Notes under the pieces: generated by a model
The model's database searches: none
Told to the model about the DNA's origin: nothing
What the model saw: only the letters and a program-made list of their open reading frames with translations
Translations under genes and position numbers: made by a program
Source of the DNA: Selenomonadaceae bacterium
GTDB lineage: Bacteria > Bacillota > Negativicutes > Selenomonadales > Selenomonadaceae
Assembly: GCA_017549815.1 (NCBI GenBank)
Contig: JAFYNH010000060.1
Location: 1-64,000 of the forward strand
Length of the DNA: 64,000 nucleotides
Direction: 5' to 3'
In this document: in pieces, positions 3,901 through 52,300 of the stretch
How the letters are laid out: each line of letters begins with the position of its first letter
Numbering within the stretch: the stretch's first letter is position 1

Positions 3901-6900
3901 TCAGATCGAGAGTGGCATTGGCTCTGTAATGATAGCAAGCTTTTTTGGCATTGCCGATAAGACGATAAGCCTGTCCCAAAAGATTAAAGAGGAACATTTT
4001 ATTGAGGAAAAGGTCTTTTTCTAAAGTAAGTGCCCGCTCGGCAGTTTTTATGGCTTCGAGTCCGTTCTTTTTTATGAAATAAAATTGCGCGCGCAACAAT
4101 GTCCGATGACGGGTGGGCGGAAATTTTTCTTCAAGATAATCAAGAACCTTTTCTGCCTCGTCAGTCATTTTGTAATTAATGTAAACGTTTGCGACTTTTT
4201 CTACAGGCATTGCCTCATCGGGTTTGAGTGCAAAAATTTTTTCGGCTATCTGCAGAATTCTTTTACTATCGTTAAACAGCTCTTTATATTGAAGAAGTTC
4301 ATTAGTCAATCTCTCTATTTCGCGCTTTTTTTCTTCGGGCGTGAAATTCTTCATCTGCTCGCAAATTTTTCCTTGCCACTTTTCCAAGAGTTTCTGGGAG
4401 TAATTAAAAGCCTCGACGCCGAAAGTTGACGCCTCAGAATTTTCGTCACGATTTTTGACCTTATCAAACGCCCGATTCATTTCGTCGACGGCGGCTTGAT
4501 ATTCGCCTTTATCGGCAAGAGCTTCGGCGAGCTTAGCAGAAAATTCGGGAACTTTGGGATAACGTTCAATGGTCAGTTTAAGATACTTCAAATAATCGTC
4601 AATCTTCGCGGGATTTTCAGATAAAATTTCCAAAAGAATTCGCGTTGAGGCGGTGGAAAGAGTTTCGCCCGTATCGAAGTCGAGCCGCGCATATTTCTCG
4701 GCGTTATCATTATCTTCGAGAGCTTGATAAGTTTCGGCAAGGTAGCCGTAAATTCTTTTGGGATTATCGGTAGTGGCAAGTTCGTCAAGCAAGGCTTTAA
4801 GATTGCGTTCCATTTTTTCCTTATGAATTGACGCGGAATAGCCCGTATGCCAAATTAGCAACAAGTCGGAAGGAACAGCTATTAAGCTCGTTAAAAGTTC
4901 GTCGCCAATAAAAAGTTGCTCGTGAATTTTACCAACATAGTGAATTCCAGAAACATTTTCATAAAGGCGAAGTACGCGGCTTCCGCCGAGATTTTTATTT
5001 TCGTTATCGGTGTCGACGTTTATCAAGCTGACGAGAATGCCCTTGATATTCTTTTCCTGCGCGAGTTCGATTGCCCTACGAAGATTTTGGGCGGTGCCTT
5101 TTACAAAGTATTCGTCGGCGTCGAGGAAAAGAATCCAACTGCCTTTAGCCGCATTAAGAGCGACGTTGCGCGGCGTTGCGAAATCATTTTGCCAAGTTTC
5201 ATGGAAAATTTTCGCGCCGAATTCCTTAGCAACTCCAATTGTGTTATCTGTCGAGCCGGTATCAACAACAATAATTTCGTCGACGTATTGCGCCACGCTG
5301 TTCAGAGAATTTTTTAAATCTTTTGCGCCGTTCTTGACGATATAGCAGGCGGAAATTGTTTGACTCCACGTTTCGATTAATTTCCGCGCAGATTTTTCTT
5401 TCTGTTCGTCGAAATCCGAATCAGTAAAAGTTCCGTCGCGCTTGCTGAATTTTTCAAGAGCCGTTTCCATTTCTTTAACGGCGGGTCGCCAGTCTCCTTG
5501 TTGAGCGTAGAATTTGGCGAGTTGCGCGGAGAATTCGGGATTCTTAGGATAATTTTTAATCGCGAGCTTTAAAGTTTCTAAATAATCGTCTGTCCGCGCA
5601 GGTTCCTTTGAAAGAATATCCAACAAAATTTTAAGCGGGCGCGTACTAAGGCTTTTAATCTTTTCTACGTGGAGCCGCGCATATTTTTCAGCATTCGCCC
5701 AATCGCCTAAACCGTAATAGCAATCGACAAGGTAGGAATAAACTCGTTCGGGCGCGTCGGAGGTGTTAAGCTCCTCAAGCAAGAGTTTCAAATTGCGCTC
5801 GAATTTTTCTTTGACAATCGAAGTTGAATAGCCCGTATGATAAAGCATTAATAAATCGTCGGTCGTCATAGTAATGTTGCTTAAAATTTTATCGCCAATA
5901 AAAGGCGTCTCGTGAATTTTGCCGACGTAGTGAAGCCCGGGAGCGTTCTCGAAAATTCGGAGGGCGTGGCTCGCGTCAATGATTTTGTTGTCGTTATCGG
6001 CGTCGACATTAATCCAACTGATTGATAGCCCTTGAAATTTATTTTTCTTAGCAAGCTTAATCGCCTTGCGGATATTTTGGGCGGTATCGTTTACAAAGTA
6101 TTCGTCGGCGTCAAGGAAAACAATCCAACTGCCCTTAGCCTCGCGAATAGCGACGTTGCGCGGAGTGGAGAAATCGTCTTGCCATTTCTCGTAAAAAATT
6201 TTCGCGCCGAACTTTTTAGCGACTTCGACAGTGTCATCGGTTGAGCCAGTGTCGACAACGATTATTTCGTCAACGAATTGCGCCACGCTGTCCAGAGAAA
6301 TCTTTAAATCTTTCTCGGCGTTTTTAACCATGTAGCACAGAGAAATCGTCGTGCTCCAAGTTTCAATCAGCTCCTGCGCGATTTTAATTTTAGTTGCGTC
6401 GAAGTTGGAAGACTCGAATTCATCTTTATAATTTTTAGCTTTGTCAATGGCGCGTTTCATTTCTTCGACGGCTTTGCGATAATCGCCGCGCTTAGCGAAA
6501 CAATCTGCCAACTTCGCGGAGAATTCGGGGACTTTGGGATAACGTTCGACGGCGAGTTTAGAAATTTCAAAGCACTCTTCAAAACGCGCAGGGTCTTTTT
6601 CCAAAATCTCAATCAGAATTCGGACGGGACGATTAGAAGGATTTTTACGGGCGTCAAGCTCAAGGCGGGCGTATTTTTCGGCGTTCGCCCAATCGCTTAA
6701 GCCGTAATAACAATCGACAAGATAAGCGTAAAGTTTTTCGGGCGTGTCGGAGGTGGCAAGCTCTTCAAGTAATGCTTTCAAATTACGTTCGAGCTTAGCC
6801 TTGATAATCGACGAAGAATAACCCGTATGATAAATCGTCAGCAGATTAGCGGGCGCGGTTATGCGATTTAAAATCTTATCGCCGTTATAAACTTCTTCAT

Positions 6901-7372
6901 GAATTTTGCCGACGTAGCGGACGTTCGGAGCCTTTTCAAAAATTCTCAAGACGTGACTGCCGTTAATAATTTTATTGCCGTTATCGGCGTCGACGTTCAA
7001 AAGGTTTACGCTAACGCCTTGCGCCTTTGCCTTTTGAGCAAGCTTTATGACTTCGCGCAGATTTTTAGCGGTGTTATTTACAAAATATTCGTCAGCGTCG
7101 AGAAAGACAATCCAATCTCCCGCCGCCTCGCGAATGGCAACGTTGCGCGGAGTAGAAAAATCGTCTTGCCACGTCTCATGAAAAATTTTCGCGCCGAACT
7201 TTTTAGCGACTTCGACAGTTGAATCGGTCGAGCCGGTATCCACAACGATTATCTCGTCGACGTATTTTTTTAAGCTTTCAAGCGAACGCGCTAAATCTTT
7301 CTCGGCGTTCTTGACCATATAGCACGCGGAAATTTTTATCGCGGCAGATTTTTTTGCTTTATATTTTGCCAA
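965..7372 (-). CDS. giant glycosyltransferase: three GT2 units plus two GT41 (OGT/SPINDLY-like) units
   Basis: This 2135-residue protein probably glycosylates a protein substrate such as flagellin or a surface protein. Residues about 13-340, 343-670 and 672-1000 are three near-repeats. Each starts with a family 2 glycosyltransferase core (CYMVKNAEKDL, VDEIIVVDTGSTD, the metal-binding FLDADEYF) and ends in a helical TPR-like half (DWANAEKYARL). A further TPR-like region (about 1030-1160) leads to two O-GlcNAc-transferase-type catalytic domains, about 1225-1560 and 1790-2135. Each of these has a GYIS.D....H motif, a DLAGHT motif and a YPYPGGGTTCDALYMG-like nucleotide-sugar site. The start is a TTG with AAAGGCGGG upstream. 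It is encoded alone, with no flagellar neighbours. GT2 and GT41 membership is clear by motif; substrates are unknown. The three GT2 units differ slightly, so they may act in sequence or some may be inactive. Confidence 0.85.
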   Translation of the reverse strand: MAKYKAKKSAAIKISACYMVKNAEKDLARSLESLKKYVDEIIVVDTGSTDSTVEVAKKFGAKIFHETWQDDFSTPRNVAIREAAGDWIVFLDADEYFVNNTAKNLREVIKLAQKAKAQGVSVNLLNVDADNGNKIINGSHVLRIFEKAPNVRYVGKIHEEVYNGDKILNRITAPANLLTIYHTGYSSSIIKAKLERNLKALLEELATSDTPEKLYAYLVDCYYGLSDWANAEKYARLELDARKNPSNRPVRILIEILEKDPARFEECFEISKLAVERYPKVPEFSAKLADCFAKRGDYRKAVEEMKRAIDKAKNYKDEFESSNFDATKIKIAQELIETWSTTISLCYMVKNAEKDLKISLDSVAQFVDEIIVVDTGSTDDTVEVAKKFGAKIFYEKWQDDFSTPRNVAIREAKGSWIVFLDADEYFVNDTAQNIRKAIKLAKKNKFQGLSISWINVDADNDNKIIDASHALRIFENAPGLHYVGKIHETPFIGDKILSNITMTTDDLLMLYHTGYSTSIVKEKFERNLKLLLEELNTSDAPERVYSYLVDCYYGLGDWANAEKYARLHVEKIKSLSTRPLKILLDILSKEPARTDDYLETLKLAIKNYPKNPEFSAQLAKFYAQQGDWRPAVKEMETALEKFSKRDGTFTDSDFDEQKEKSARKLIETWSQTISACYIVKNGAKDLKNSLNSVAQYVDEIIVVDTGSTDNTIGVAKEFGAKIFHETWQNDFATPRNVALNAAKGSWILFLDADEYFVKGTAQNLRRAIELAQEKNIKGILVSLINVDTDNENKNLGGSRVLRLYENVSGIHYVGKIHEQLFIGDELLTSLIAVPSDLLLIWHTGYSASIHKEKMERNLKALLDELATTDNPKRIYGYLAETYQALEDNDNAEKYARLDFDTGETLSTASTRILLEILSENPAKIDDYLKYLKLTIERYPKVPEFSAKLAEALADKGEYQAAVDEMNRAFDKVKNRDENSEASTFGVEAFNYSQKLLEKWQGKICEQMKNFTPEEKKREIERLTNELLQYKELFNDSKRILQIAEKIFALKPDEAMPVEKVANVYINYKMTDEAEKVLDYLEEKFPPTRHRTLLRAQFYFIKKNGLEAIKTAERALTLEKDLFLNKMFLFNLLGQAYRLIGNAKKACYHYRANATLDLSELKNSPELEKIFHHARNIQIDEHSNLLFNLHNLNISREELFGWIRDFNKFYKDIPRYKHNIKKHAKHKKIRIGYISPDIRYHVVAFFIMHLFKSYDRTRFEVSIYANNLYDGITKELCNEVDFFRDIFDKPAEEVAEQIFKDEIDILVDLAGHTAGNCLKVMAYKPAPIQISGIGWFDSTGLDTIDYFLADKFTDPEGLNEKFFTEKILRLQHSHFCYVWHDFPHMTTPAPCIKKGYVTFVSFNNFVKVTDEILRAWSEILNAVPNSRLYLKSAVFKENCGLELAKERMTKIGINVERVDFEDIEDNYLQCYERADIALDTYPYPGGGTTCDALYMGIPVITLVGERHNSRFGYSLLMNMGLEELCAFNMTEYIQKAIELANDKERLREYHLTLRRRMEESPVMNDIIYMGEIEQAYEKIFSAWLNKKPLPDFPQEPEPITEELADKYYKRALEYLPLEDADRGSKYKSRFDFKRTLYFAELAAQCPSKVDAGLLLTIADRRYLTDDNLGAYEIMHKAIERLYPPYDEAKNLPNDVLAEYFCKMAKYCQDNGHHLEAIENYERAFDICETPQRKLEYYDAILLTLHFLDIPSEDLAAPHFDYQQFFEGIETFTTYHKPHERIRVGYISGDFRQHAAFSVIFGFISCHDKSKFEVTCYSRNKVDDFYTEIFKKAVEHFVSVKGLTDEQIAQKIHDDEIDIAFDLAGHTGLNGLPALAYKPAPVQICGVGYMSTTGLKAIDYFITDEILDPPNQNREKYFSEKFLYLPSQFCYLRPEKIAPSEGAACVENGYVTFGTICRYSKISNDMLAVWKEILDRVPDAKLIMRAQEFISNKTVDELYNRMKNIGFDVDRVVFRAAVADNDYFQAISKIDIMLDAFPYVGGVTTLDALYMGVPVVNFYGERHSTRFSKSILNAVGLSELSVNSVEAYIQTAVALANDFDTLDILHKNLRQMFLNSDALNPMKYCRALEKKFEEFFR

Positions 7373-24578: not shown

Positions 24579-25493
24579 ATGAATAAATACGAATTTCTGA
24601 GGTGGCTCGACGACCCCGACATCAAAGAAAAAATTCTAAAAATCGTCGCGGAGCCAAAAAAATTTCCAGAGCCCGAAGAAAAATTTTTAACCAATGACAA
24701 CGAGCTTGATAATCTGCGCGGAGAAAATTCTCGACTCGAAAACGACTTGTCGGAGACTCAACAGCGCGTCAATGATTTAGAACGACAAATTAAATCGGCG
24801 CAGTATAAAAATTCGCGCTTGGAAAATGATTTGGCAAGTTCCCAACAGCGCGTTAAAGATTTAGAACAACAAATTCAAAACGCGCAGTACAGAAATTCGC
24901 GGCTGGAAAATTCCTTGTCGCAATCGGAGCAAAGTTCGCGTGCTCTTAAAAATAAATTGGAAGAGTGGCAAAGAACTTTCAATCGCGAACAACAACACGC
25001 CAATAATTTACAACGCGAACTCGACGCCGCCAACGATAAAATTTCCGAGCTTAATTCGCTACTGCAAGCGCGATTTGCTCACGGCTGGGAATTGTTCCAA
25101 AAATATCAGAGCGTCGGCTCACATGCTCGGCAACTATTGCAGGGCGTCTTCCCGCACGAAAATTTTACGTCGTTCATCTGCGGCGGAGCGCAAGTTAATT
25201 CGCTTGAAACGCTTTGGGAAGTGTTGCGCGAATGCGTCATGAATCGTCGGCAACAGGACGCCGAGATTTTAGGAGAAATTTTCGAGTATTGTTTGGAACT
25301 AGTTAATGCGTCGAAAGCGCAGGCGAGTTATTCTATTTTGCCCGTCAATGTCGGCGACCGTTTTGATTCGGACGTTCATATTGAGGCTCCGGGTAGTCGC
25401 GCTCAAGGGACAGTCGCCGCCGTCTATTTGCCCGGTTATCGCAACGACTACAGCGGAAAAATTATCAGAAAATCTATCGTTCAAGTAAGTTAA
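24579..25493 (+). CDS. coiled-coil protein with GrpE-like C-terminal domain
   Basis: This 304-residue protein has three parts. Residues 1-45 are a short helical head (EFLRWLDDPDIKEKILKIV). Residues about 45-165 are a long coiled coil containing three near-identical units (RLENDLSETQQRVNDLERQI, RLENDLASSQQRVKDLEQQI, then RLENSLSQSEQ). The C terminus resembles the beta-domain of GrpE, the nucleotide-exchange factor of DnaK: VGDRFDSDVHIEAPG, GTVAAVYLPGYR and IIRKSIVQV, matching the GD-FD---H-A...G-V--V---GY-----IIR---V-V pattern. The next gene, 12 bases downstream, is an Hsp70-like ATPase, which supports an exchange-factor or adaptor role. It is the first gene of the operon, with GTGAGG before the ATG. 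The GrpE similarity is by eye and needs a profile search. Confidence 0.7.
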   Translation: MNKYEFLRWLDDPDIKEKILKIVAEPKKFPEPEEKFLTNDNELDNLRGENSRLENDLSETQQRVNDLERQIKSAQYKNSRLENDLASSQQRVKDLEQQIQNAQYRNSRLENSLSQSEQSSRALKNKLEEWQRTFNREQQHANNLQRELDAANDKISELNSLLQARFAHGWELFQKYQSVGSHARQLLQGVFPHENFTSFICGGAQVNSLETLWEVLRECVMNRRQQDAEILGEIFEYCLELVNASKAQASYSILPVNVGDRFDSDVHIEAPGSRAQGTVAAVYLPGYRNDYSGKIIRKSIVQVS

Positions 25494-25505
25494 GGAGTTG
25501 TTCTT

Positions 25506-28454
25506 ATGGAAAATGCACTGCCCAAAAATCGTCCGACGCGCAGAGATTTTGTCAATGTCAATCGCTCACAGTTCGACCATATTTTTTCAGAAGCCGCCGT
25601 TGCAAAAGGCGATGAGATTGCCCGCAACCTCGCCAAACTTAAAGACGACATTGCCTCCGCTTGCGATAAAACTTTTGTCATGATGAAAAATAAACAAGTC
25701 TGGTTTGACAGGAACAATGCCGCCCTCTTCCCTAAATTTCATAAATTTTCTTTGCCAAGATATAAAACAAGATATGCGCCTTCACTTGGTTACAGTACAA
25801 ATTTTGAAGGATTTAACTTCGTAGCTATGACAATTAATGAATGTCAAAAAAGTTTTACAAATAACAAAGGGAATCCTTATTTGAAATCTGACGGCAACTT
25901 TAATCATTTTCCCATACGACCAGATCGTATTTTAACCGATGATGGTCATCGATTTGTTGATACAAATGGCGGCGTAGTCAGCTGGGATGATAGCTATGAA
26001 ATTACGCTTGTTCCGATTCACAGACTGCGCGGGAAAAATGCGGCGGCAATGAATTATCCTGAAGCGTTGCTTGCTTGGATTGCTAACGGCTTAATTCCCG
26101 AAGGCTTGAGTACCAAGCAGGAAACATTTTATAAAACTTTTCTTAATGATTATCCGAAAATCGAAGACTACATTTCAGCCGACAGCACAAACATAAAATT
26201 CGACGGCGAACGCTTTAAAGCCGACGTTTTGAGCGGGAAGTTTACGGCTAAAGTTTTCGATTACGACTTCGATATTCGCGGGACGCTCGACGGCGTTATC
26301 AGCGGACAGAGGCAATACAGCGGCTCGGTTGATTCGCTTAAGAAAGAATTGCTCGCCTGTGATAACAAACGCGCCAACATTCAGCCCTACGAAGAGCGGC
26401 TACTCACCGACGTTAATCGCGGGCATTGGGAACTGTTCGAGGACGCGGCGGCTGATACGGCTAAGGTAAATTTACCTGCGGACAGTTTCCTTGTGGCGCG
26501 CCCGCCTCAACTCGACGTGAGATATAACGGCATTTGCGCTATCGACTTCGGCACGAAAAGTACAATCGTAGTGTGTCGCGACGGCGATGCGCGTATGCTC
26601 CGAATCGGGCAGGGCGACTACTCCAAAGCTCCAACCATGCGCGATTTTGAAAATCCGACCGTCATTGAACTGCGCGATATTCAAAATTTCTTAACGGCTT
26701 ATCGTGTACGCGGCGGACGACCTTTCACGGAATGGAATCAAGTCACGGTATCGCATCAGGCGGCGGACGCGATTTTTAAAGAAGGCGTCGGCAGTACTGT
26801 TTACAATTCGGTTTTCAACGAGCTTAAGCAATGGGCTAAGGACGAGCAAAATTATCCTGTGCTGAAAGACCTGCGCGGCGCGACTTTGGACATTAAACCC
26901 TACCTTGAGACGAAAGAAATTGACGCGGGCGACTTCGACCCGATTGAGCTTTACGCCTATTATCTGGGGCTTTATATCAACAACATGCACAACCAAATTT
27001 ATCCGGATTATATCTTGTCGTTCCCCGTCAACTACAAGAAGGCTATTTGTGAGCGTATTCGTAAGAGTTTCGAGAGCGGGATTAAGAAATCATTGCCGCC
27101 CGCACTCCTTCGCGATGAAGAGTTTATGAAACGCTTCAGAGTATATTTGGGCGCGAGTGAGCCAGCCGCTTATGCGATAAGTGCGCTTGAATGTTTCGGG
27201 CTTGAGCCTAAAGAAGTCGGCGAAAAAGTTGCTTACGGCGTTTTCGACTTCGGCGGCGGCACGACCGATTTTGATTTCGGCATTGAATACATTCCCGAAA
27301 ATCGGCGCAAGTGCAATTTCATCATTGAGCAATTCGGATTCAACGGCGATGTTTTACTCGGCGGCGAAAATATGTTGGAACTCCTTGCCTATGAAGTCTA
27401 CAAAGATAATCTTGACAAAATGCGCGAGAAAAAAATCCCGTTCGCATTGCCCGCCGGTTGTAAAAAATTCGCGGGCGCGGAGGCTTTAGTCAAGGAGAAT
27501 AATAAAGACGCTTCGGCGCATATGAACAATCGCATTTTGGCAGAAAAACTTCGTCCGATTTGGGAGAATACCGCCGAGCGCGAGAAATTAACGGAAGACG
27601 CGCAGAGTTGGATTTTATTTTCTAGTGAAAAACAGTCCGACGAAAGCTATAAAGTCAACGTGGATTTAAAGATTGAGGCGGCGAAGTTGGAGCAAATTAT
27701 CGAGGCAAGGATTAGGGAAGGCGTCGTTAATTTTTTCCAATCGCTTTGGAGCGCGTTTGACGGGCGATTTGTTTGTCCGATTCATATTTTCTTAGCGGGC
27801 AATTCGTGCCGTTCGCCGATTGTCAAGAAACTTTTCGAGGAATTCATTAAGCGGGAAGAAGATAAACTTGCCGAAAGCGTCAAGAAAAATACAGGGCAGG
27901 ATAAAGACGCGACCGGAACTTTTATTTTGCACATGCCGCTTGGTATGGAAGAAGGCGACGAATCTGCCAACGTTATGGAGCTTGATAAACAGCGCACGGG
28001 CAAAACGGGCGTGGCATTCGGCTTGCTTAGGTGTCGGCGCGGCGGCAAGGACGTTAAGATTAACAATGAAAATGAAACCAAAATTGATATAAATTTCCCT
28101 TACTTTCTCGGCGACGCGGGCAATGACGGCAATACTTTTACGGTTAGAATCGGGCAAAAAGTCAGTTACGGCGAATGGGTTTATTTCACGGTTGCCGACG
28201 AACCCGAATTTGAATTGTATTACACAAAGGCTCCGCGTTCTCTGCAAAATAATATGCCTGTCTCCGATTCGCAAATACAAATGATTCATTGTCTGCTTGA
28301 CGAGGACGACACAATCGACGATGACAATTACGGCGTTTATATCAAAAAAGTTTCGCCGAATATGATTGAATATGCGGTTGGACGTGCAGAAGATTTTGCG
28401 GGCGAGTTGAAGGTTAAGAGAGTTTATCAGCAGATTTTAAAGGACGTAAGATGA
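25506..28454 (+). CDS. Hsp70/actin-fold ATPase with novel N-terminal domain
   Basis: The protein has 982 residues. About 340 N-terminal residues have no recognised fold and contain WDDSYEITLVPIHRLRGKN and NYPEALLAWIANGLIPEGL. Then comes an Hsp70-like ATPase: the phosphate-1 loop ICAIDFGTKSTIVV (about 343-356), the phosphate-2 loop YGVFDFGGGTTDFDFG (about 577-592) and the adenosine motif IHIFLAGNSCRSPIVKKLF (about 759-777). There is no classical peptide-binding beta-sandwich or EEVD-like tail; instead about 180 residues follow. It is much longer than DnaK (about 610). The preceding gene encodes a GrpE-like protein and the following HerA ATPase gene overlaps its stop (ATGA). SrfB is another large Hsp70-like protein, but the neighbours do not match the Srf operon. 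A role as the chaperone or regulatory ATPase of a multi-protein machine is inferred. Confidence 0.75.
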   Translation: MENALPKNRPTRRDFVNVNRSQFDHIFSEAAVAKGDEIARNLAKLKDDIASACDKTFVMMKNKQVWFDRNNAALFPKFHKFSLPRYKTRYAPSLGYSTNFEGFNFVAMTINECQKSFTNNKGNPYLKSDGNFNHFPIRPDRILTDDGHRFVDTNGGVVSWDDSYEITLVPIHRLRGKNAAAMNYPEALLAWIANGLIPEGLSTKQETFYKTFLNDYPKIEDYISADSTNIKFDGERFKADVLSGKFTAKVFDYDFDIRGTLDGVISGQRQYSGSVDSLKKELLACDNKRANIQPYEERLLTDVNRGHWELFEDAAADTAKVNLPADSFLVARPPQLDVRYNGICAIDFGTKSTIVVCRDGDARMLRIGQGDYSKAPTMRDFENPTVIELRDIQNFLTAYRVRGGRPFTEWNQVTVSHQAADAIFKEGVGSTVYNSVFNELKQWAKDEQNYPVLKDLRGATLDIKPYLETKEIDAGDFDPIELYAYYLGLYINNMHNQIYPDYILSFPVNYKKAICERIRKSFESGIKKSLPPALLRDEEFMKRFRVYLGASEPAAYAISALECFGLEPKEVGEKVAYGVFDFGGGTTDFDFGIEYIPENRRKCNFIIEQFGFNGDVLLGGENMLELLAYEVYKDNLDKMREKKIPFALPAGCKKFAGAEALVKENNKDASAHMNNRILAEKLRPIWENTAEREKLTEDAQSWILFSSEKQSDESYKVNVDLKIEAAKLEQIIEARIREGVVNFFQSLWSAFDGRFVCPIHIFLAGNSCRSPIVKKLFEEFIKREEDKLAESVKKNTGQDKDATGTFILHMPLGMEEGDESANVMELDKQRTGKTGVAFGLLRCRRGGKDVKINNENETKIDINFPYFLGDAGNDGNTFTVRIGQKVSYGEWVYFTVADEPEFELYYTKAPRSLQNNMPVSDSQIQMIHCLLDEDDTIDDDNYGVYIKKVSPNMIEYAVGRAEDFAGELKVKRVYQQILKDVR

Positions 28455-31400
28455 ACGAGAAACTAAATCAAGACTTCGATAAAAAGTTGCGGCGCGGGCG
28501 GGCGGTGTTGAATTATCTCAATGCCCGCTCTAATCGCTGTCTGCTTGATAAGGGTTGCGAATGGGTCGGCAAAAAAGTTTCGCTTGAGCTGAACGAAATT
28601 TTTTTATTCCAAATTTTGGAAGTCACGTTTGAGGAAAAGGCTCCGCGCAAAGAGGCGATTGAAAATATTTTGGGCACTCTGCGCGGCATGGAAGGCATAA
28701 GTTTTATTTATCTGATTTTGGGCGACGCATCGGGCGTTAAATTCTATTTCGGGGCGGCTCGCGATAAATCGTATCCGAATCACAAAATGCCGTTCAGCGT
28801 CCACGACTTGGAGCAAGATATTTTAACGCCGAGCATGAAGGGGAATTTTCGCGGCTCTAAAGTTTCTGAAGTCAATCGCGACGAGAAAAAAATTATTCTG
28901 GAAAGGATAAAAAATGCGGCGAGCTTTGGGATATTGGAGGGCGTGCCGAGCGTCGACGAAAAGAACGAAAATTTTCAAGGAACCGACCGTTTGATTGACG
29001 TTATGCAGGGCGACGAATTCGGGTTTGCGGTTATTGCCACGCCCTACACCGACGCCGAGACCGACGAACTTGAACAGCAACTTTTTGCGTTGAGTGATTC
29101 GCTTATGCCCTTAGCGCGTCATACCATACAGCGTTCGACTTCGAGCGGCAAAAATCGCAATGACGGCAGAAATTTTTCCTACGCTAAGCAAGCGGGCGAC
29201 TCAATTCAACACAACGAATCCGAAAGTTATACGCAGAATGACGCGACTAATCACGACGAACGGCGCGACGAATCTAATCAAATACAAAATTCTTCGGGCG
29301 AATCGACCAATGAGCAAACTTCGACGAGTAAGAATTTCAACAAGAGCAAGGGCGACAAAGACACCGAATCCGCCGGCAACGGTAGCAGTACGAATCATGG
29401 CGTGCAAAGTCAGCGCAATAATTCTTCGACGGTGAGTTCTTCGCGGAGTTCGGCGACTTCAAATTCATTTAGCGAAAGCAAATCTTATCGCAACGACGCG
29501 AGCGACAATCATTCCAAAAGCGTTTCCAAAAATTTAACGCGGTCGAGTGGCGTGACGGCTAGCGAAAATATTTCAATCAGCGAACAGACGGAGAGCGAAT
29601 CCAAATCGGCGGTTGATTGGCTGAATTATATCGACAAAGTTTTAATGCCGCGCTTGGATCATGGACGCGGCAAGGGTATTTTCTTATGTTGCGGCTATCT
29701 TTTTGCGGAGCGGCGGACGACACTTTACAGGTTGGCGAATACGGCGATTTCGCTTTACAGCGGCTCGGCGGGGAATAAGTCGGCGTTATTCTTCAATGAC
29801 TTAACCGATAAAAAGGACGATTTAGATTGCATACACGCGCTGAAAAATTTGCAAATCCCCGTTGCGTTGCGAACCGCGAACACCGAATATTTTCCTGCGG
29901 CGGGCTTATCGCGTCACGAACGGAATAAATTTTCTTACTGCGGCAGTTGGTTATCGGCGAATGAGTTAGGACTTTTGGCGGGACTTCCTCAGAAAGAAGT
30001 TATCGGATTGCGTCTGCGCGAGGAAGTTGAATTTGGTTTGAACGTCGAGAAAGTTCCTGCCGAATATGCGTTGGAGCTTGGGCATTTGGTGCAGAGCGGC
30101 GAGGTTAAGGAAAATATTCCCGTGAGTTTGGACAAGCGCGACTTCGACAAGCACGCATTTATATCGGGCGTGACGGGTAGCGGCAAAACTACGACTTGCC
30201 AAAATATTTTATTGGGCTGGGGCGGCGCGTTCTTAGTCATTGAGCCAGCGAAGACAGAATACCGTTCGTTGAAGGAATATTGTCCAGACCTGTTATTTTT
30301 TACGCCCGGACTTCCCGACGCCGCGCCGTTTTTCTTGAATCCTTTTGAACTTTTCCCGAACGAAAAAATTTCAGCCCGCGCAGATATGTTAAAGGCAACG
30401 TTTGAGGCGTCGTTTGCAATGGAGGCGGCAATCCCGCAGATTTTGGAGGCGGCGATTTATCGGGCTTACGAGAATAAAGGTTGGCACATCGGCACGAACA
30501 CTTGGCGCGGCGGAAATCCTTTTGCCGACGGCGTTTATGCCTTCCCTACGTTATCAGATTTTGTCAAGGCGACTAAGGAAATCACCGAGAAACAGGGCTT
30601 TGACGAACGCTTGAAGAATGATTATCTGGGTTCGATAAATGCGCGGCTTGAAGGCTTAATGGTCGGCGCGAAGGGGCAAATGTTTAATACGGCGCGTTCG
30701 ATAAATTTTTTGGAGCTGATTAAAAGGCGCGTCGTGATTGAGCTTGAAGAAATTCGCAGTAGTTCGGAGAAGTCCTTGTTAATGGGCTTTATCCTTACGA
30801 ATCTTTTGCAAGCCGTCAAGCATTGTCATTCACTCGACAAAAATTTTCGCCATATAACTTTGATTGAAGAGGCGCACAGACTTTTAAGCCGCTACTTGCC
30901 CGGCGACAATCTGAATAAGAAACAGGGCGTCGAAGTTTTTACGGACATGTTAGCGGAGGTTCGCAAATACGGCGAGAGCTTGATAATCGTTGACCAAATT
31001 CCCGATAAGATGACGCCCGAAGTATTGAAGAACACGAACACGAAAATTATTCATAAGCTGTTCGCGCAGGACGACAAGGACGCCGTCGGGAATACTATGG
31101 CATTGAGCGACGAACAAAAAGCTTTTCTGTCGAATTTGCCGCCCGGTCGCGCCGTCATGTTTTCGCAAGGCTGGACTAAGGCTATACAGTTGCAGATTGA
31201 AGAAAAAATTCCTTCCGAGCGCAAGGAAATTGACGTTTCGGAAATTCGGCGGGCGGCGATGAATTATTATCTTGAGCCGGAAAATTTACGTCGTGGGATT
31301 CTGCGCGGGCTTGAAAAATTGAGCGACGTTGACGAAAAAATTTTGACGAATTACTTGGAGCTTTTGCAGAGCGGCGATTTGATTTTGAAAACTTATCTTC

Positions 31401-31657
31401 AATATTTGAGCGACGGCACGGCGGGCGAGCGTTCGCGTTCTGACGACGTAAAAAAATTTGCCGACTTCGCTGACGGAATCAGACGGGCGGCTAAAAAATT
31501 CGGCGTGAAATTACTTGAAACTTATCTTTGCGCCAATGCCTATTCGGAGCCTGACGACGACCGCGATAAAAATCTGCGCGAAGTTCTTAAAGAAATTATC
31601 GACGACGAAAAAGTTACTATGAGCGTCATAACCAACAACATAACGCGGCTTTCGTAA
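28451..31657 (+). CDS. HerA/FtsK-type ATPase (DUF87-like) with Ser/Asn-rich linker
   Basis: This 1068-residue protein probably forms a hexameric motor acting on DNA or polypeptide. Residues 1-220 are a folded N-terminal domain (FLFQILEVTFEEKAPRKEAI, FIYLILGDASGVKFYFGAA). Residues about 223-390 are low complexity, rich in Ser, Asn, Asp, Glu and Lys. After about 390 the core begins: Walker A FISGVTGSGKTTTCQNILL (about 571-589), FLVIEPAKTEYRSL, Walker B ITLIEEAHRLL (about 801-811), EVRKYGESLIIVDQIPDKM (sensor-like) and KIIHKLFAQDDKDAVG. This order matches the HerA/VirB4/FtsK superfamily with a DUF87-type ATPase. About 150 helical residues complete the C terminus. The ATG overlaps the stop of the Hsp70-like gene. 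HerA relatives occur in DNA repair, phage defence and conjugation; none of the usual partners (NurA, SIR2, DUF4297) is here. Confidence 0.82.
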   Translation: MNEKLNQDFDKKLRRGRAVLNYLNARSNRCLLDKGCEWVGKKVSLELNEIFLFQILEVTFEEKAPRKEAIENILGTLRGMEGISFIYLILGDASGVKFYFGAARDKSYPNHKMPFSVHDLEQDILTPSMKGNFRGSKVSEVNRDEKKIILERIKNAASFGILEGVPSVDEKNENFQGTDRLIDVMQGDEFGFAVIATPYTDAETDELEQQLFALSDSLMPLARHTIQRSTSSGKNRNDGRNFSYAKQAGDSIQHNESESYTQNDATNHDERRDESNQIQNSSGESTNEQTSTSKNFNKSKGDKDTESAGNGSSTNHGVQSQRNNSSTVSSSRSSATSNSFSESKSYRNDASDNHSKSVSKNLTRSSGVTASENISISEQTESESKSAVDWLNYIDKVLMPRLDHGRGKGIFLCCGYLFAERRTTLYRLANTAISLYSGSAGNKSALFFNDLTDKKDDLDCIHALKNLQIPVALRTANTEYFPAAGLSRHERNKFSYCGSWLSANELGLLAGLPQKEVIGLRLREEVEFGLNVEKVPAEYALELGHLVQSGEVKENIPVSLDKRDFDKHAFISGVTGSGKTTTCQNILLGWGGAFLVIEPAKTEYRSLKEYCPDLLFFTPGLPDAAPFFLNPFELFPNEKISARADMLKATFEASFAMEAAIPQILEAAIYRAYENKGWHIGTNTWRGGNPFADGVYAFPTLSDFVKATKEITEKQGFDERLKNDYLGSINARLEGLMVGAKGQMFNTARSINFLELIKRRVVIELEEIRSSSEKSLLMGFILTNLLQAVKHCHSLDKNFRHITLIEEAHRLLSRYLPGDNLNKKQGVEVFTDMLAEVRKYGESLIIVDQIPDKMTPEVLKNTNTKIIHKLFAQDDKDAVGNTMALSDEQKAFLSNLPPGRAVMFSQGWTKAIQLQIEEKIPSERKEIDVSEIRRAAMNYYLEPENLRRGILRGLEKLSDVDEKILTNYLELLQSGDLILKTYLQYLSDGTAGERSRSDDVKKFADFADGIRRAAKKFGVKLLETYLCANAYSEPDDDRDKNLREVLKEIIDDEKVTMSVITNNITRLS

Positions 31658-31669
31658 GGAGGAAATTTT

Positions 31670-32539
31670 ATGGGCTGGTTCAGTTCTGCTTGCAGTTTTG
31701 TCGGTAGCGCGATAAGTTCAGCTTGCAGTGCAGTAAGTAGCGGTTTTAGAAGTGTTGGCAGGGCTTTATCGAGCTTTGCAAGCGCGACGGTTGGTCTTGT
31801 CGGCAGTTTAGCGGCTAAGGCGGCGAATTTTGTCGGACTTATTACGACCTTGCCGCTGGGTTCTTTAGGAATGGTACTCGGTCCGATTATTCAGCAAGTT
31901 ATGATTCATTTCGTGGTAAAGGCGATTGAATATCTTGCCAAAAAGCTCGGCATAATCAAAGACAGCGACAAAGTTGAGGAAATCGGTTATCGCGTTGAGG
32001 AGGCGCAGGAGCATGATGATTGGAAAAAGCAAGAGGAATTTAAAACTTTCGAGGAATACTACGCTTATTTGAAGGCGCAAATTCCCGACGATAAAATTGA
32101 CAGGGTTAAGCTCGCCGCCAACCGTGAACGATATATGATTCTCGGCATGGTGGAGCTGACTAACGGGCTTGAAAATAAAATGGGAATTAAAATGCCCGAA
32201 GATTTTCTGTTTGAAATCGGGCGCAGTCGTATGGAGCCTAATGAAATCCTTGCCATAATCGACGCCTTCAAGTTTTTGGGCAGTGATACTGTGTATGTCA
32301 GCGATTATTTCAAGGGCAAGCTGTCCCGCGACGAAAATATTAAGATTGAAGATGCGTTGCTGGTTGCGCTTAGGAAATATTATCCGCAGAAGGACGACGA
32401 TTATTTTTATGAACGGCTGGGAGTTATGCGCAAGGCAAGTCGCGATGATTTAAAGTTGGCGGACGTTTACGCGGACAAGTTGACGGAAGAAAATTTCAAA
32501 CGCATTGAGCGCGAAGGGAAAATTCCCGACGATTTATGA
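31670..32539 (+). CDS. protein with Gly/Ser/Ala-rich membrane-active-looking N terminus
   Basis: The first about 95 of 289 residues are dominated by Ser, Ala, Gly and Val with regularly spaced small residues (SSACSFVGSAISSACSAVSS, FASATVGLVGSLAAKAANFV, LPLGSLGMVLGPIIQQVMIH). Such a segment could insert into or lie along a membrane as glycine-zipper helices. After it comes a charged helical domain (KVEEIGYRVEEAQEHDDWKK, FKTFEEYYAYLKAQIPDD, MEPNEILAIIDAFKFLG) with EF-like acidic stretches but no clear calcium loop. There is no classic signal peptide. It lies 12 bases after the HerA-like gene with AAGGAGG. I recognise no family. It could be the membrane channel, anchor or effector of the operon; this is inference. 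Confidence 0.6.
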   Translation: MGWFSSACSFVGSAISSACSAVSSGFRSVGRALSSFASATVGLVGSLAAKAANFVGLITTLPLGSLGMVLGPIIQQVMIHFVVKAIEYLAKKLGIIKDSDKVEEIGYRVEEAQEHDDWKKQEEFKTFEEYYAYLKAQIPDDKIDRVKLAANRERYMILGMVELTNGLENKMGIKMPEDFLFEIGRSRMEPNEILAIIDAFKFLGSDTVYVSDYFKGKLSRDENIKIEDALLVALRKYYPQKDDDYFYERLGVMRKASRDDLKLADVYADKLTEENFKRIEREGKIPDDL

Positions 32540-32551
32540 GCGGAGGAATTT

Positions 32552-32839
32552 ATGGACAAAAATTTTAGCATAAAAGAAATGTTGGATTCGATTAATGCGG
32601 ACACAAGTCTTTACGAATCAAAGATTAGCCGCGTAAAGGCTGAAGTTGCGTTGGAAAATTTTTCTTCGGAGACGGAATTTATGCTGGGCGTTTCGATTAA
32701 GCAAGTGGAGCGTGAAAAACTTTTAGCGGATAAGTCGCGGGAAACGGAAGAACTTCGCCAAAAAGTTAAGCATAGGAAATCGACGACGGAGCGGACGATT
32801 AAAAATTTTTATGACGAATGCAGGGGGTATCGGCTTTGA
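32552..32839 (+). CDS. small helical protein of the Hsp70-HerA operon
   Basis: This 95-residue protein is predicted to be mostly helical and highly charged (INADTSLYESKISRVKAEVA, DKSRETEELRQKVKHRKSTT). No family is recognised. The ATG has GCGGAGG upstream, 12 bases after the previous stop, and its own stop overlaps the likely start of the next gene. Its conserved tight spacing in the operon supports a real gene and perhaps a structural or adaptor subunit. Confidence 0.6.
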   Translation: MDKNFSIKEMLDSINADTSLYESKISRVKAEVALENFSSETEFMLGVSIKQVEREKLLADKSRETEELRQKVKHRKSTTERTIKNFYDECRGYRL

Positions 32840-33474
32840 AGAGGTACATAATTGAGATTGACGCGGAGAAAATTTTTTCGTATGAGGCGGAGGGTTGCGG
32901 GCAAAATTTTCATTGTCGGCTTATGAAACCGCACGGCGATAAATTTTATACGGCGGGGGAATTTTTAGATTATTGGGCTTGGTTTGCGGAGGAGACAGCC
33001 GACGGCAAGCCCGATATTTGTTTTATTTACGTTGAAGACGAGCGACAAACTCTTGAGCGATTGAAGAAGGACGCGCCAAAGTTAAATAATTCGACTTGGG
33101 AGATGTTGGAGCTTAAAAAATTTTTTACAGAGTATCGTGACGCGACGTTGAAGGAAAATTTTCGTTGGGAGGACGGCAAAATAATTTTCGACGACGGCAG
33201 AATTTTTAATCTTGACGGCGTGGCGAATTTTATTTTATCGGATGAAACGGAACCTGCGCGGGAGCAACCAAAGCCCAAATTCAGAGTAAAAGTCTACACG
33301 CCGCCTGTTATTCAAGAGGAGCCGCCCGAAGAAATTTCCAATCTCGAAAAAGATATTCCGCCGTTGATTGATTTGCCCGACGAGTTTAAAGAGAAAATTT
33401 CTGTTGAGGATTTTCAAAACTATATCGAAGAGCAAACTGGCGGGCAATGTGATAAAGTTTCTTTCAAAAGGTAA
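32836..33474 (+). CDS. unknown protein, last gene of the Hsp70-HerA operon
   Basis: I place the start at TTG 32836, which overlaps the previous stop (TTGA) and follows GGGGG by eight bases, giving 212 residues; an upstream ATG at 32818 would add six. The N-terminal half is alpha/beta (KRYIIEIDAEKIFSYEAEG, ICFIYVEDERQTLERLKKD). After about residue 140 comes a Pro/Glu-rich linker (VKVYTPPVIQEEPPEE) and a short acidic helical tail. No family is recognised. A convergent cbiE gene ends two bases beyond its stop, so the operon ends here. Confidence 0.6.
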   Translation: MKRYIIEIDAEKIFSYEAEGCGQNFHCRLMKPHGDKFYTAGEFLDYWAWFAEETADGKPDICFIYVEDERQTLERLKKDAPKLNNSTWEMLELKKFFTEYRDATLKENFRWEDGKIIFDDGRIFNLDGVANFILSDETEPAREQPKPKFRVKVYTPPVIQEEPPEEISNLEKDIPPLIDLPDEFKEKISVEDFQNYIEEQTGGQCDKVSFKR

Positions 33475-49264: not shown

Positions 49265-49300
49265 ACTCCCGCAAGGATTTTTCTTACGGGAGTCTTTTTT
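49265..49300 (+). terminator. rho-independent terminator
   Basis: ACTCCCG (49265-49271) pairs perfectly with CGGGAGT (49287-49293), followed by C and six T. It overlaps the stop region of the convergent CapA-MurF-VanY gene. Confidence 0.9.
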
Positions 49301-52300
49301 ATTTACACAGCGCGGAAAGTTTTTCTAAGGTGTCTTTCAGGTTTGAAGTTAGGAGTATCGGGCGATTGAACTTTAGGAGCGGTTCAGGATTGACGCAGAT
49401 AAAGCCCGCCATTTGACGGAATATCTTGGCAAGTTCTTTTTCACTTATCCCTATTCCCTGCCCTTGTTCGACTGCAACCAAATGATTAACTCTGAACGGT
49501 CGCGAATAAAAAATACCGTTGCAAGCCCAACCTTCTGGCGGCGGCGCGAGCCATTTACAACCGCTCAACTTTTCAATTTGCTCGGCGGAATAAGTCAGTT
49601 CGGGCGGCAGGCTTTCAATCGCAAGCACTCGCGCAGGTATTCCTTCCCGACTCTTTATGTATGTGAAATGCCAAGGTTCAAAATCATACTCCTTGAAGAA
49701 ACCGAACGACGCGGCGTTTTTATCCAGCCAAGCTTTAACAGCCTTGTTGCCAATGTTCGCAATGTCAACCGCCAAGCCGTAGCCATGCGAACTTGTACCC
49801 GGAATGGCGGCATATGCTTCATCGGGTTTCAGTTGCCAAATTTTATCCTCAAACTCAACGCGAATCGCATTGTCGGGAAAATCATCTTGATTATCGATGG
49901 AAACAAAACGATTTTGGAAGGCTTTAATTTGTTTTTCTATTCCCCTATAAGCATTGAAGGGAGTATTCAAACTCAAAAAAATATTATCCTGCGCGGCGGC
50001 GCGAATCATTGCCAGCCAACTGCGAGCCGCGTCAATATAAAGATGTCCGCCGCAATGAATTCTTTTCAACTTATCAGCAGGAACTTTTCCGTTCTGCGCA
50101 GGAGTAATTCCTTCGGGCAAAAAATTTTTAACGTCAAACAACGGTCGCGGAATATTTAATGCGGGAACAGTTACGACAGGCGCAACGGCGGTACTCAATA
50201 AATCAACGACTTTTGACAAGCCCGTCGCATGTGACGACTTAATAAGAATTGTATCGCCGTCCCTTAAATGCGCGTCAACATTTTTAAGCAAATCGGCAAG
50301 CGTCGCGAAATAGGTCGCATCAAGTTTATCCTTAATAAGCTCGTAGGGATAACGCATAAGCTCGCCGCAAAGTAAAATCCTGTCAGGCTCGGTGGCAAGT
50401 ATGGCATCGGCAATTCCTTTGTGATAATTAATTGAGTCTTCGCCAAGCTCCGCCATGTCGCCCAAAATCGCTACGCGAGATTTTTGATTAGGCTCAAAAG
50501 TTTTCAAATGCTCCAATGCGTATTTCATGGAAAGCGGATTGGCGTTATAGGTACTGTCAATAACCGTTAAATTCTTCCCGCTACGATTGACTTTTAAGAC
50601 GTTGCCGCGCCCCTTGACTACTTCAAAAGTTTTTAAATATTCAAGAGTTTTTTCGACGGGAAAACCAATGGCAACCGAGACGCCAATAACAGCAAGTGCG
50701 TCGCGAAGTTGGTCGGCGGGCACAGAGCAATTAAGTTTATAAGTCTTGCCCATAACGGAAAATTCGCCGCCGTTTTCAATGACAGGCATTCTTATAGTAG
50801 CGTCGGGGTGCGTGCCGAACGTGATTATATTCAGCTTGAAAGACTTCGCCTTTTCCTCAAAGACTTCGTAAAGAGGCATGTCGCGATTTATTACGGCGTA
50901 ATTGCCAGCCGACATTCCGCAAAAAATTCTGCTCTTATAATAAGCGACATTTTCCAATGAGCCGAGTATTTTATTTCCGACATGAGACGGCGCAATCGAA
51001 GTTACTACAGCTACATTCGGCGTAATTTCATAGGTAAGCGAACCGCGTCTTTTCACAAGGGCGTTTATGGAAGTTTCGATAATCGCGTAGGCGTCGTTCT
51101 GTTTGACGCTCGCAAAAATCCAAGGGATTGTATGATAGATATTCGTTCCGCTCGGATTAAATTTAATCGTGTGATCTTTACCTAATACGCAATTAATCAT
51201 GTTGCAAGTAGTGGTTTTACCCAGCGAACCCGTTACGGCGATAACTTTACCTTGAAAACGTTTCCGCGCCGCAAAGCCTATTTCATACATTGCACGTTCG
51301 GAATTAGCGACTTTTAGCAGAGGAAAATCGGGCGGCAAGCCCTCAATGTCATGATCTATTATGGCACCGTCCACATTATCAACATTTCTCAAAAGTCTTT
51401 TATGCGAATCAAAGCCTTTTATTTTAGCCGCCAAAAACAATGTCGGTTGCGGGTATATCCTATTAACAAGAGGATCACTTCTGCTAAAAGAATTTGTATA
51501 CCAACCTTTAGGCGGAGGAACAATCCATTTTCCACCAGTAACTTTTGCGAGTTGCTCGGCAGTCCAACATTTACCCGGCTCCGATTGATAAATTATATCG
51601 TCGAATTCGTCGGCATAGTAGGGCAGCCCTTCAACTTTCATCTTGATTAAATTCGGGTCTTTGAATTCGCCGAGAATTTCTGTGTCGTCCAAAACTTTTA
51701 TGGTTACTTGCAAATCGACGTTGGCTATTTTTTCGCGGTCGTCTTTCATAGGTACAAGGAGAGCAATTTTTTCATGATAGATAACGCCCGCCTTCCAACG
51801 ATTTGTCGGAAAAGCGTAATCTAAAAACTCGTGAATTTGTCCCGCACCGTAGGGAGGCATGTCGCATTCACGAACGGGAACGCCCTCTATCGACAGCAAA
51901 AGATTTTTATCCGTCGGCTCGTCAATCGTCCAGTAAGTTTCAACATAAAGCATTTTTGCTTCCGTCATAGTGCGACAATCGGGCGGGACGCGATAGCCGA
52001 CCAATTTCAAAGCTCCGAAACGTTTCGGCGGAATAATCGCATCATCGGGAACTTTATCAACAGTCCATTCAGGACGCGGCTCGACAAGCGGTTTGACTAA
52101 GTGTTTATCGCGCTTAATGTCAACAAAATAGCTGAGGGATTTCAATCTGCGCGGCGGCGTAAAAGAAATTTCGACCATTCCTCTATCAAGAGCAGTTGTC
52201 GTCGTGCCAAATTTTTCGCAACGTTCAAGGAACATTTTCTGAATTTTTGGAGCGGATTTTATAGCTCGTCGTGTTTGACCGGGTTGCTTAATCAGCGGAA

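Follow-up and report, generated by a model that had tools for sequence, protein, structure and literature searches.

What is an Hsp70 doing in an operon with its own GrpE-like partner and a HerA/FtsK-type motor? The question is raised by a run of six genes at positions 24579..33474 of a 64,000 nt stretch of contig JAFYNH010000060.1 from a Selenomonadaceae bacterium (the window), which a preliminary description made from the sequence alone had put forward as a single, undescribed, six-gene assembly. Comparison with related loci shows the cassette to be made up of two exchangeable modules that mostly travel together. One comprises the predicted Hsp70, with its catalytic residues intact, the GrpE-like protein and the product of the sixth gene (P6); the other comprises the putative HerA/VirB4-type motor and its steady hydrophobic companion, the product of the fourth gene (P4). 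The cassette may represent an unnamed anti-virus or inter-bacterial conflict system, and the reading we prefer, held at rather less than even confidence, is of a mobile, chaperone-gated conflict system of two plug-together modules, most likely acting in cell-autonomous defence against phages or plasmids.

All six open reading frames (ORFs) are real and on the forward strand, with the genes flanking the operon on either side in the opposite orientation. Their junctions are, in order, +12, -4, +12, +12 and -22 bases; the spacing first described, of 4-base overlaps or gaps of about 12 bases, holds at four of the five, genes 5 and 6 overlapping by 22 bases as called. Chance ORFs can be ruled out, because the genes are conserved at the protein level and recur in the same order in other genomes. 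They form one conserved unit, albeit with a core of five genes rather than six, gene 5 being lineage-specific. Elsewhere the window has two very long ORFs on the reverse strand, of 2135 aa (965-7372) and 1269 aa (49299-53108).

The two ATPases and their partners

Gene 2 (25506..28454, + strand) encodes a 982 aa protein that had been described as an Hsp70/actin-fold ATPase with an N-terminal part of about 340 residues resembling nothing familiar, and both halves of that description are upheld. It matches no Pfam family at E values up to 1, the limit used in scanning all six operon proteins, and reaches the NCBIfam DnaK model at E 6.5e-4, under that model's cut-off. However, a profile of 54 sequences picks out Hsp70 chains among PDB entries (E 8e-5 at best), and residues 342-782 (26529..27851, + strand) align to DnaK with an hhalign score of 90% (E 1.6e-6). 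Residues K441, E552, D581 and T586, which we take to be the counterparts of K70, E171, D194 and T199 in DnaK numbering, are each identical in 54 of 54 sequences; an Hsp70 nucleotide-binding domain with the catalytic K, E, D and T is accordingly present. By contrast, neither residues 1-338 nor residues 783-982 matched either part of DnaK (hhalign at most 0.1%), and the N-terminal profile found nothing better than E 0.3 amongst PDB sequences. No DnaK-type substrate-binding domain was detected at the sequence level in the C-terminal region (hhalign 0.1%, using cut alignment columns). A relationship to the SrfB-type Hsp70-like proteins of SrfABC, a model for which is presumably included in Pfam, was considered and dropped in view of the absence of any Pfam match for gene 2 at E up to 1.

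Gene 1 (24579..25493, + strand) encodes 304 aa, with a coiled coil at around residues 41-165 and a GrpE-type domain at around residues 245-304. GrpE is absent among the 25 listed of the 85 Pfam families for this protein, which are mostly coiled-coil models; across the gene 1 family, ten of 42 members reach the GrpE model at E 0.5 or below, the best at 0.0016. As a coiled coil could inflate such matches, the C-terminal part was compared alone. The last 65 residues scored 94.6% in hhalign against the last 65 of housekeeping GrpE and 92.0% against the whole protein, and the last 135 residues scored 95.2% against the whole, compared with 0.3% for gene 4 and 0.0% for the gene 6 family as controls. 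The housekeeping side of this comparison consisted of three sequences (three of 17 loci passed the motif filter), and the GrpE set was pooled from genomes in which some contigs were present twice. These values support the GrpE-type C terminus previously ascribed to gene 1, and a GrpE C-terminal domain is predicted there. The operon is not the housekeeping chaperone operon, as the same genome has a separate GrpE and DnaK side by side on its contig 29. The Pfam HSP70 model gives 13 match pieces in this genome, some of them halves of one gene and the short ones possibly MreB-like: contig 49 has three of them besides the DnaK match of contig 29, and further pieces lie on contigs 8, 57 and 91, amongst others.

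Gene 3 (28451..31657, + strand), encoding 1068 aa, matches Pfam DUF87 above the cut-off (E 3e-6) and the HerA and mad8 models of PADLOC, whilst a match to NCBIfam NF033849 ('serine-rich protein') falls under its cut-off. The Walker A sequence GVTGSGKTTT (residues 573-582) and EEAH (806-809), both within a motor core of approximately residues 530-925 (30038..31225, + strand), are invariant in a 66-row alignment. A RecA-like motor fold with Walker A and B motifs, as in the HerA/FtsK superfamily, is present; together with the DUF87 match it sustains the original assignment to this class. In the predicted structure the motor is preceded by an N-terminal domain (residues 1-226; 28451..29128, + strand), for which the predicted local distance difference test score (pLDDT) is mostly above 70, and by a Ser/Asn/Gln/Thr-rich linker (residues 227-379; 29129..29587, + strand) with pLDDT below 50. 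The N-terminal region has no significant relative amongst PDB sequences (best E 0.96), and the structure-search matches listed scarcely cover it.

In structure comparisons the modelled motor comes closest to DndH, to VirB4 and to HerA proteins that belong to repair and anti-phage complexes. Such matches would fit a HerA-type DNA-processing machine, comparable to HerA-NurA, SIR2-HerA or Dnd, in which Hsp70 and GrpE dismantle protein-DNA complexes, and helicase-like and DUF2357 genes do adjoin the HerA-P4 pair in some loci. We regard this explanation as improbable. The HerA-nuclease defence systems (SIR2-HerA/Nezha, DUF4297-HerA and HerA-NurA) and DndH differ from the operon in the window, which has the long serine-rich linker and a hydrophobic partner, and Pfam, NCBIfam and PADLOC showed no nuclease or NADase partner among its six proteins.

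That hydrophobic partner, P4 (289 aa; 31670..32539, + strand), has a Gly/Ser/Ala-rich N terminus followed by a part without any library match; neither it nor the products of genes 5 and 6 gave anything usable in the Pfam, NCBIfam and PADLOC scans. Glycine, serine and alanine make up 53% of its first 60 residues and 15% of its last 120, and its top 19-residue hydropathy is 1.66, in keeping with its description as apparently membrane-active. The bias extends to the family (103 members; medians of 42% and 20% in the same segments), in which hydropathy of at least 1.6 is reached by 87 of 103 members, as compared to none of 83 Hsp70, 10 of 104 HerA and two of 68 GrpE sequences; these sets pool genomes, with duplicates kept and some contigs present twice. 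A membrane role is plausible from the VirB4-like fold of the motor and the hydrophobic N terminus of P4.

P6 (218 aa; 32818..33474, + strand), the fifth core component, belongs to the same family as a gene of 150-200 aa found downstream of P4 in other phyla: it scored 97.9% and 84.7% in hhalign against two outside groups, which scored 98.7% against one another, with unrelated controls at no more than 0.6%. Gene 5 (95 aa; 32552..32839, + strand) has a cluster of three sequences, its own and two copies (loci L038 and L095) of what is apparently one relative's contig, and appears from these comparisons to be lineage-specific. Its proposed relationship to a gene of 132-134 aa at the same place in other Selenomonadaceae was unsupported (hhalign 1.0%).

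Two modules and their distribution

A scan of contigs gave 240 confirmed relatives of HerA, the best 80 of which were analysed, a set leaning towards close relatives; genes were called mechanically, as the longest ORFs with the leftmost start, and clustered by single-linkage blastp. Within eight genes of HerA, P4 was found at 75 of the best 80 loci, Hsp70 at 56, a P6-type gene at 46, GrpE at 44 and all five core genes at 33, all of which are lower bounds, since many loci end at contig ends. Neighbours in the expected order are on one strand throughout, with median gaps of 0-13 bases. The host taxa in the titles of HerA relatives include Selenomonadales, Clostridia, Bacillaceae, Vibrio, Photobacterium, Pseudoalteromonas, Acinetobacter, Helicobacter, Sulfurovum, Fusobacterium, Treponema, Lentisphaerae and Bacteroidaceae, amongst others.

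It is in these counts that the two modules separate. GrpE tracks Hsp70, being present at 43 of the 56 loci with Hsp70 and one of the 24 without, as does P6 (42 of 56 and four of 24); P4 instead tracks HerA. Correlations between distance matrices were r 0.94 for Hsp70 and HerA (46 loci), 0.83 for P4 and HerA (72 loci) and 0.91 for GrpE and Hsp70 (36 loci), with none of 5000 Mantel permutations as high in any pair, although vertical descent with the host would raise r too. The co-occurrence of the two ATPases, on which the claim of a new system had been staked beforehand, is thus borne out. The idea of one large assembly fares less evenly: the genes are a conserved unit, but each module is also found without the other, and so the unit is divisible.

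Presence is patchy at wider scales. Among 151 genomes of the same family, relatives of Hsp70 were found in 44 (eight of 30 genera) and of HerA in 31 (11 of 30), many of these genomes having one without the other. In 299 genomes of the phylum, scored for at most two candidates each at E up to 1e-60 for HerA and 1e-40 for Hsp70, HerA was found in six and Hsp70 in five; three had HerA only, two Hsp70 only, and in the three with both, including the genome of the window, the two are adjacent. HerA occurs twice in one clostridial locus (L160), once in a row that also contains GrpE, P4, a P6-type gene and a fragment of Hsp70, and once as a gene of the remote kind.

Neighbourhoods, mobility and rival functions

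Away from Hsp70, the HerA-P4 module keeps varied company. Eight loci (L098, L133, L138, L148, L149, L169, L172 and L174) have gene clusters in common, the scanned proteins of which, from L149 and L138, match Mokosh MkoA (1.7e-58 and 9.3e-76) and, partially, MkoB (2.5e-11 and 1.2e-12); the sole L174 protein scanned and one from L149 had no match of this type. In a plasmid relative of this Mokosh-like set, an annotated DUF2357 gene stands in a row with HerA-P4. A dynamin-like gene lies beside HerA instead in L168 and L171, where P4 is present, in L142, where P4 was not seen, and in L004, a second HerA-P4 copy on contig 66 of the window's own genome.

Beside this second copy (L004:12868-15348) are two proteins whose cysteine-rich starts consist of repeats, with runs such as CCVGNCCIGDCCVGNC. 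They lie directly upstream of a 450 aa protein in which a CxxxCxxC motif like that of radical SAM enzymes can be made out by eye. All three genes have relatives in L079-L084, and the arrangement looks to be of the modified-peptide (RiPP) type. Next to another HerA-P4 pair (L149:14055-17052), radical SAM, PHP-domain and PRTase-like genes stand in a row, the clusters recurring in Arcobacter (L105). A NERD-nuclease/helicase cluster recurs near HerA in L159, L162, L109 and L127 (one member tested), with a kinase bearing a treble-clef domain close by in L159 (tested) and in L162 (same cluster).

The chaperone module, for its part, is found without HerA next to a CDC48-like double AAA+ gene in L050, L059, L061 and L062 (one protein tested), and with a VgrG-like cluster in L049, L052, L053, L056, L063, L066 and L067. 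Six of the latter seven also carry an AHH-nuclease cluster, as judged from the proteins of L052 alone, in which the Hsp70 pair is upstream of the AHH nuclease and VgrG-like protein. A Helicobacter plasmid has a GrpE-like gene and an Hsp70 gene broken into two overlapping ORFs. Downstream of these come a 213 aa gene, likened to P6 by eye only as it has no blastp or Pfam match, and then genes for a WXG100-like protein, which at E 4.6e-5 narrowly misses the Pfam cut-off, for a WHH nuclease and an SMI1 protein, and for an FtsK ATPase resembling EccC/YukB. Downstream of a remote HerA on an E. coli plasmid are genes for an HNH/ENDO VII nuclease and for SMI1, with two dynamin genes also there, and in L090 the remote HerA is followed by a WHH nuclease. 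There are, too, plain Hsp70 relatives that lack all of these partners.

Such modules with nuclease toxins and immunity genes speak for a machine that deploys or secretes toxins against other bacteria, in which the VirB4-like motor would export or inject P4 whilst Hsp70, GrpE and P6 keep the cargo competent, in the manner of export chaperones. The available text of PMC3482391 notes that type VII secretion has mobile forms, with solo WXG proteins, in epsilon-proteobacteria and others. The VirB4 protein TrwK can be aligned at full length over residues 41-938 of the gene 3 model; however, this is a loose superposition (root mean square deviation 14.9) in which only the motor half is well matched. 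Furthermore, no nuclease, immunity protein, WXG100 protein or secretion channel was recognised in the operon itself, amongst the families listed for its six proteins. We consider toxin deployment possible, if on the doubtful side.

Carriage on plasmids bears on a further alternative. On an Acinetobacter piscicola plasmid, genes for a WYL protein, HerA, a 78 aa ORF with a P4-like start (by eye), P4, a 310 aa protein, GrpE, two Hsp70s, a HEPN protein (so annotated in the record; Pfam E 3e-5, under the cut-off) and a dynamin-like protein form a row, followed by an integrase. WYL regulators recur in Vibrio and Photobacterium copies (a cluster of four loci, one tested), as does HEPN (a cluster of three loci, with a blastp match to the plasmid protein). 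Across 72,556 plasmid records, a Vibrio Hsp70 query matched two; a HerA query matched 137, two of them with at least 80% covered. In 41 genomes, the window's own included, the left flank gene of the window was found in 37 and the right in all 41; amongst the matches listed, the two are on different contigs in 36 of 36 relatives with both, which in draft assemblies is partly fragmentation.

This separation of the flanks, the patchy presence within the family and the plasmid carriage all argue against a domesticated function in stress or in the cell envelope, unconnected with conflict. Such a function would suit the Hsp70 relatives of 886-910 aa that, in one genus (L040, L041, L042, L071 and L072), stand alone among partly common neighbours, without HerA, P4 or GrpE, and may themselves be domesticated. 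It would also suit the setting of the window operon, amongst housekeeping-like genes. We think it quite unlikely, more so than either of the other alternatives.

The conflict reading itself draws upon the co-occurrence and gene order, the Mantel correlations, the patchy presence, the plasmid carriage, the intact motifs of both ATPases, the VirB4/HerA/DndH fold of the motor and the hydrophobic stretches of P4, as well as upon the neighbours of HerA-P4, namely Mokosh-like MkoA/MkoB and DUF2357, WYL regulators and HEPN genes. Several observations weigh against it, starting with the nuclease toxins and immunity genes of the related modules. The genes flanking the operon look like housekeeping genes, and HEPN is on the opposite strand in three of the four loci that carry it. 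PADLOC recognised no system in the six operon proteins, matching gene 1 through its coiled coil and finding nothing of note beyond genes 1 and 3. A PADLOC scan at 1e-20 of genes flanking the Hsp70-bearing loci, made in search of a defence island, tips the balance neither way: 113 models were matched by 118 flanking genes and 58 by 113 control genes, a single gene often matching many models, and the controls were all from one family. The flanking genes were 118 of 232 eligible (220-1300 aa, one per cluster) from 45 of the 56 loci, and the controls 113 of 160 from 18 of 19 control stretches; counts are of members per model, not of genes, with 25 models listed per set. Finally, two scans of viral contigs, with two short peptide patterns each, yielded no confirmed relative, and HerA found two weak, unannotated phage records. 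A phage origin was set aside on the same grounds.

Relation to described systems and a possible gate

The claim that the system is undescribed stands in part. No named operon of this composition was found in Pfam, NCBIfam or PADLOC, nor any Hsp70-GrpE-HerA operon in full-text searches of one open-licence library; the combination is apparently unnamed. The HerA-P4 half, however, has probably been described already. The available text of PMC11090510 gives three alternative ATPase extensions of Type III-A CoCoNuT operons: an EssC-like ATPase with WXG100, a SpoVK/CDC48-like ATPase and, accompanied by a small helical protein, an EccE3-plus-VirB4-like HerA. This third extension is probably the HerA-P4 pair, on the basis of its description and DUF2357 neighbourhood rather than of sequence comparison. 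There the ATPase, of HerA/VirB4 type, is described as carrying an additional N-terminal domain and an insertion that varies, and its operon also encodes the small helical protein. The window likewise has a HerA/VirB4-like ATPase and a small partner for it, and one HerA-P4 pair of the gene 3 family adjoins an annotated DUF2357 gene.

The differences from CoCoNuT lie in the other half. The operon has a predicted catalytically intact Hsp70 with its own GrpE, whereas ATP hydrolysis by the Hsp70-like domains of CoCoNuT is considered probably very poor, and GrpE is not mentioned, in the available text of PMC11090510. Neither an McrB-type GTPase nor DUF2357 (McrC/CnuC) appeared amongst the Pfam families listed for the six proteins. 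DUF2357-type proteins near HerA-P4 were tried as carriers of a related Hsp70, without support (hhalign 0.7% and 0.5%).

For an Hsp70 accompanied by its GrpE amid conflict-type genes there is a precedent in the GAP1-N2 systems, HSP70 and GrpE being reported in about 14% of GAP1-N2 GTPase neighbourhoods (PMC7159879). Those systems are built on GAP1-N2 GTPases, whilst the partner here is HerA-P4; in the available text of that paper the sole 'HerA' is within a reference title. No GTPase match was shown for the six proteins in the scan with Pfam, the models of which may include GAP1-N2. The likeness to DnaK-GrpE extends to the ATPase domain, its catalytic residues and the GrpE-type domain, but gene 2 has the extra, unmatched 338 residues at its N terminus and no detected substrate-binding domain, and no J-protein was found in the same scan. 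With VirB4 of type IV secretion, the motor fold is alike, but no other type IV secretion gene was recognised among the six proteins, nor was any match to the WXG100 proteins of type VII secretion shown by Pfam. The cassette is therefore best seen as kin of known NTPase-driven conflict cassettes, and not as categorically new, because its HerA-P4 half has probably been seen before and HSP70-GrpE pairs are reported in other conflict loci.

Within the preferred reading of a chaperone-gated conflict system, the division of labour is suggested by what varies. In one set of loci Hsp70 stays and the motor changes, and in another it is Hsp70 that changes and the motor that stays. Hsp70-GrpE-P6 is on this account best read as the part that senses or gates, and HerA-P4 as the part that executes. 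The cargo of the motor is probably P4, because it occupies the place taken by a nuclease beside the remote HerA, and by WXG100 and a nuclease near FtsK. Using P6 and its own additional N-terminal region, the Hsp70 unit would hold or sense the motor or a signal protein, and nucleotide exchange driven by GrpE would reset or release that hold. The motor, which may form a hexamer and be tethered through the disordered linker, might then deliver P4 to, or insert it into, the membrane, or alternatively act on the invading nucleoprotein. The outcome would be that growth is stopped or the invader blocked.

A broader and rather speculative proposal is that a complete Hsp70 nucleotide cycle (Hsp70, GrpE and P6) has been co-opted to switch on and off a range of interchangeable motors that translocate proteins: HerA/VirB4 with P4; on one plasmid, an EccC-like FtsK with WXG100 and a nuclease; and elsewhere a CDC48-like AAA+ protein or a VgrG-type spike. 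HerA, EccC-like FtsK and CDC48-like ATPases, all of which accompany the Hsp70-GrpE module, the FtsK kind on that plasmid only, are the same three kinds as the CoCoNuT extensions in the available text of PMC11090510. This suggests a common plug-in logic, whereby a motor can fire its cargo, membrane-active or nuclease, once licensed by a chaperone-like adaptor.

If this is true, then in several phyla Hsp70 and GrpE, its dedicated exchange factor, would act in bacterial immunity or antagonism, as a switch that sets the timing, rather than in protein folding. The cassette would also provide a second, independent context in which to learn the function of the HerA and small helical protein pair of CoCoNuT, and it offers a tractable set of genes for asking how a chaperone cycle gates a HerA/VirB4 motor.

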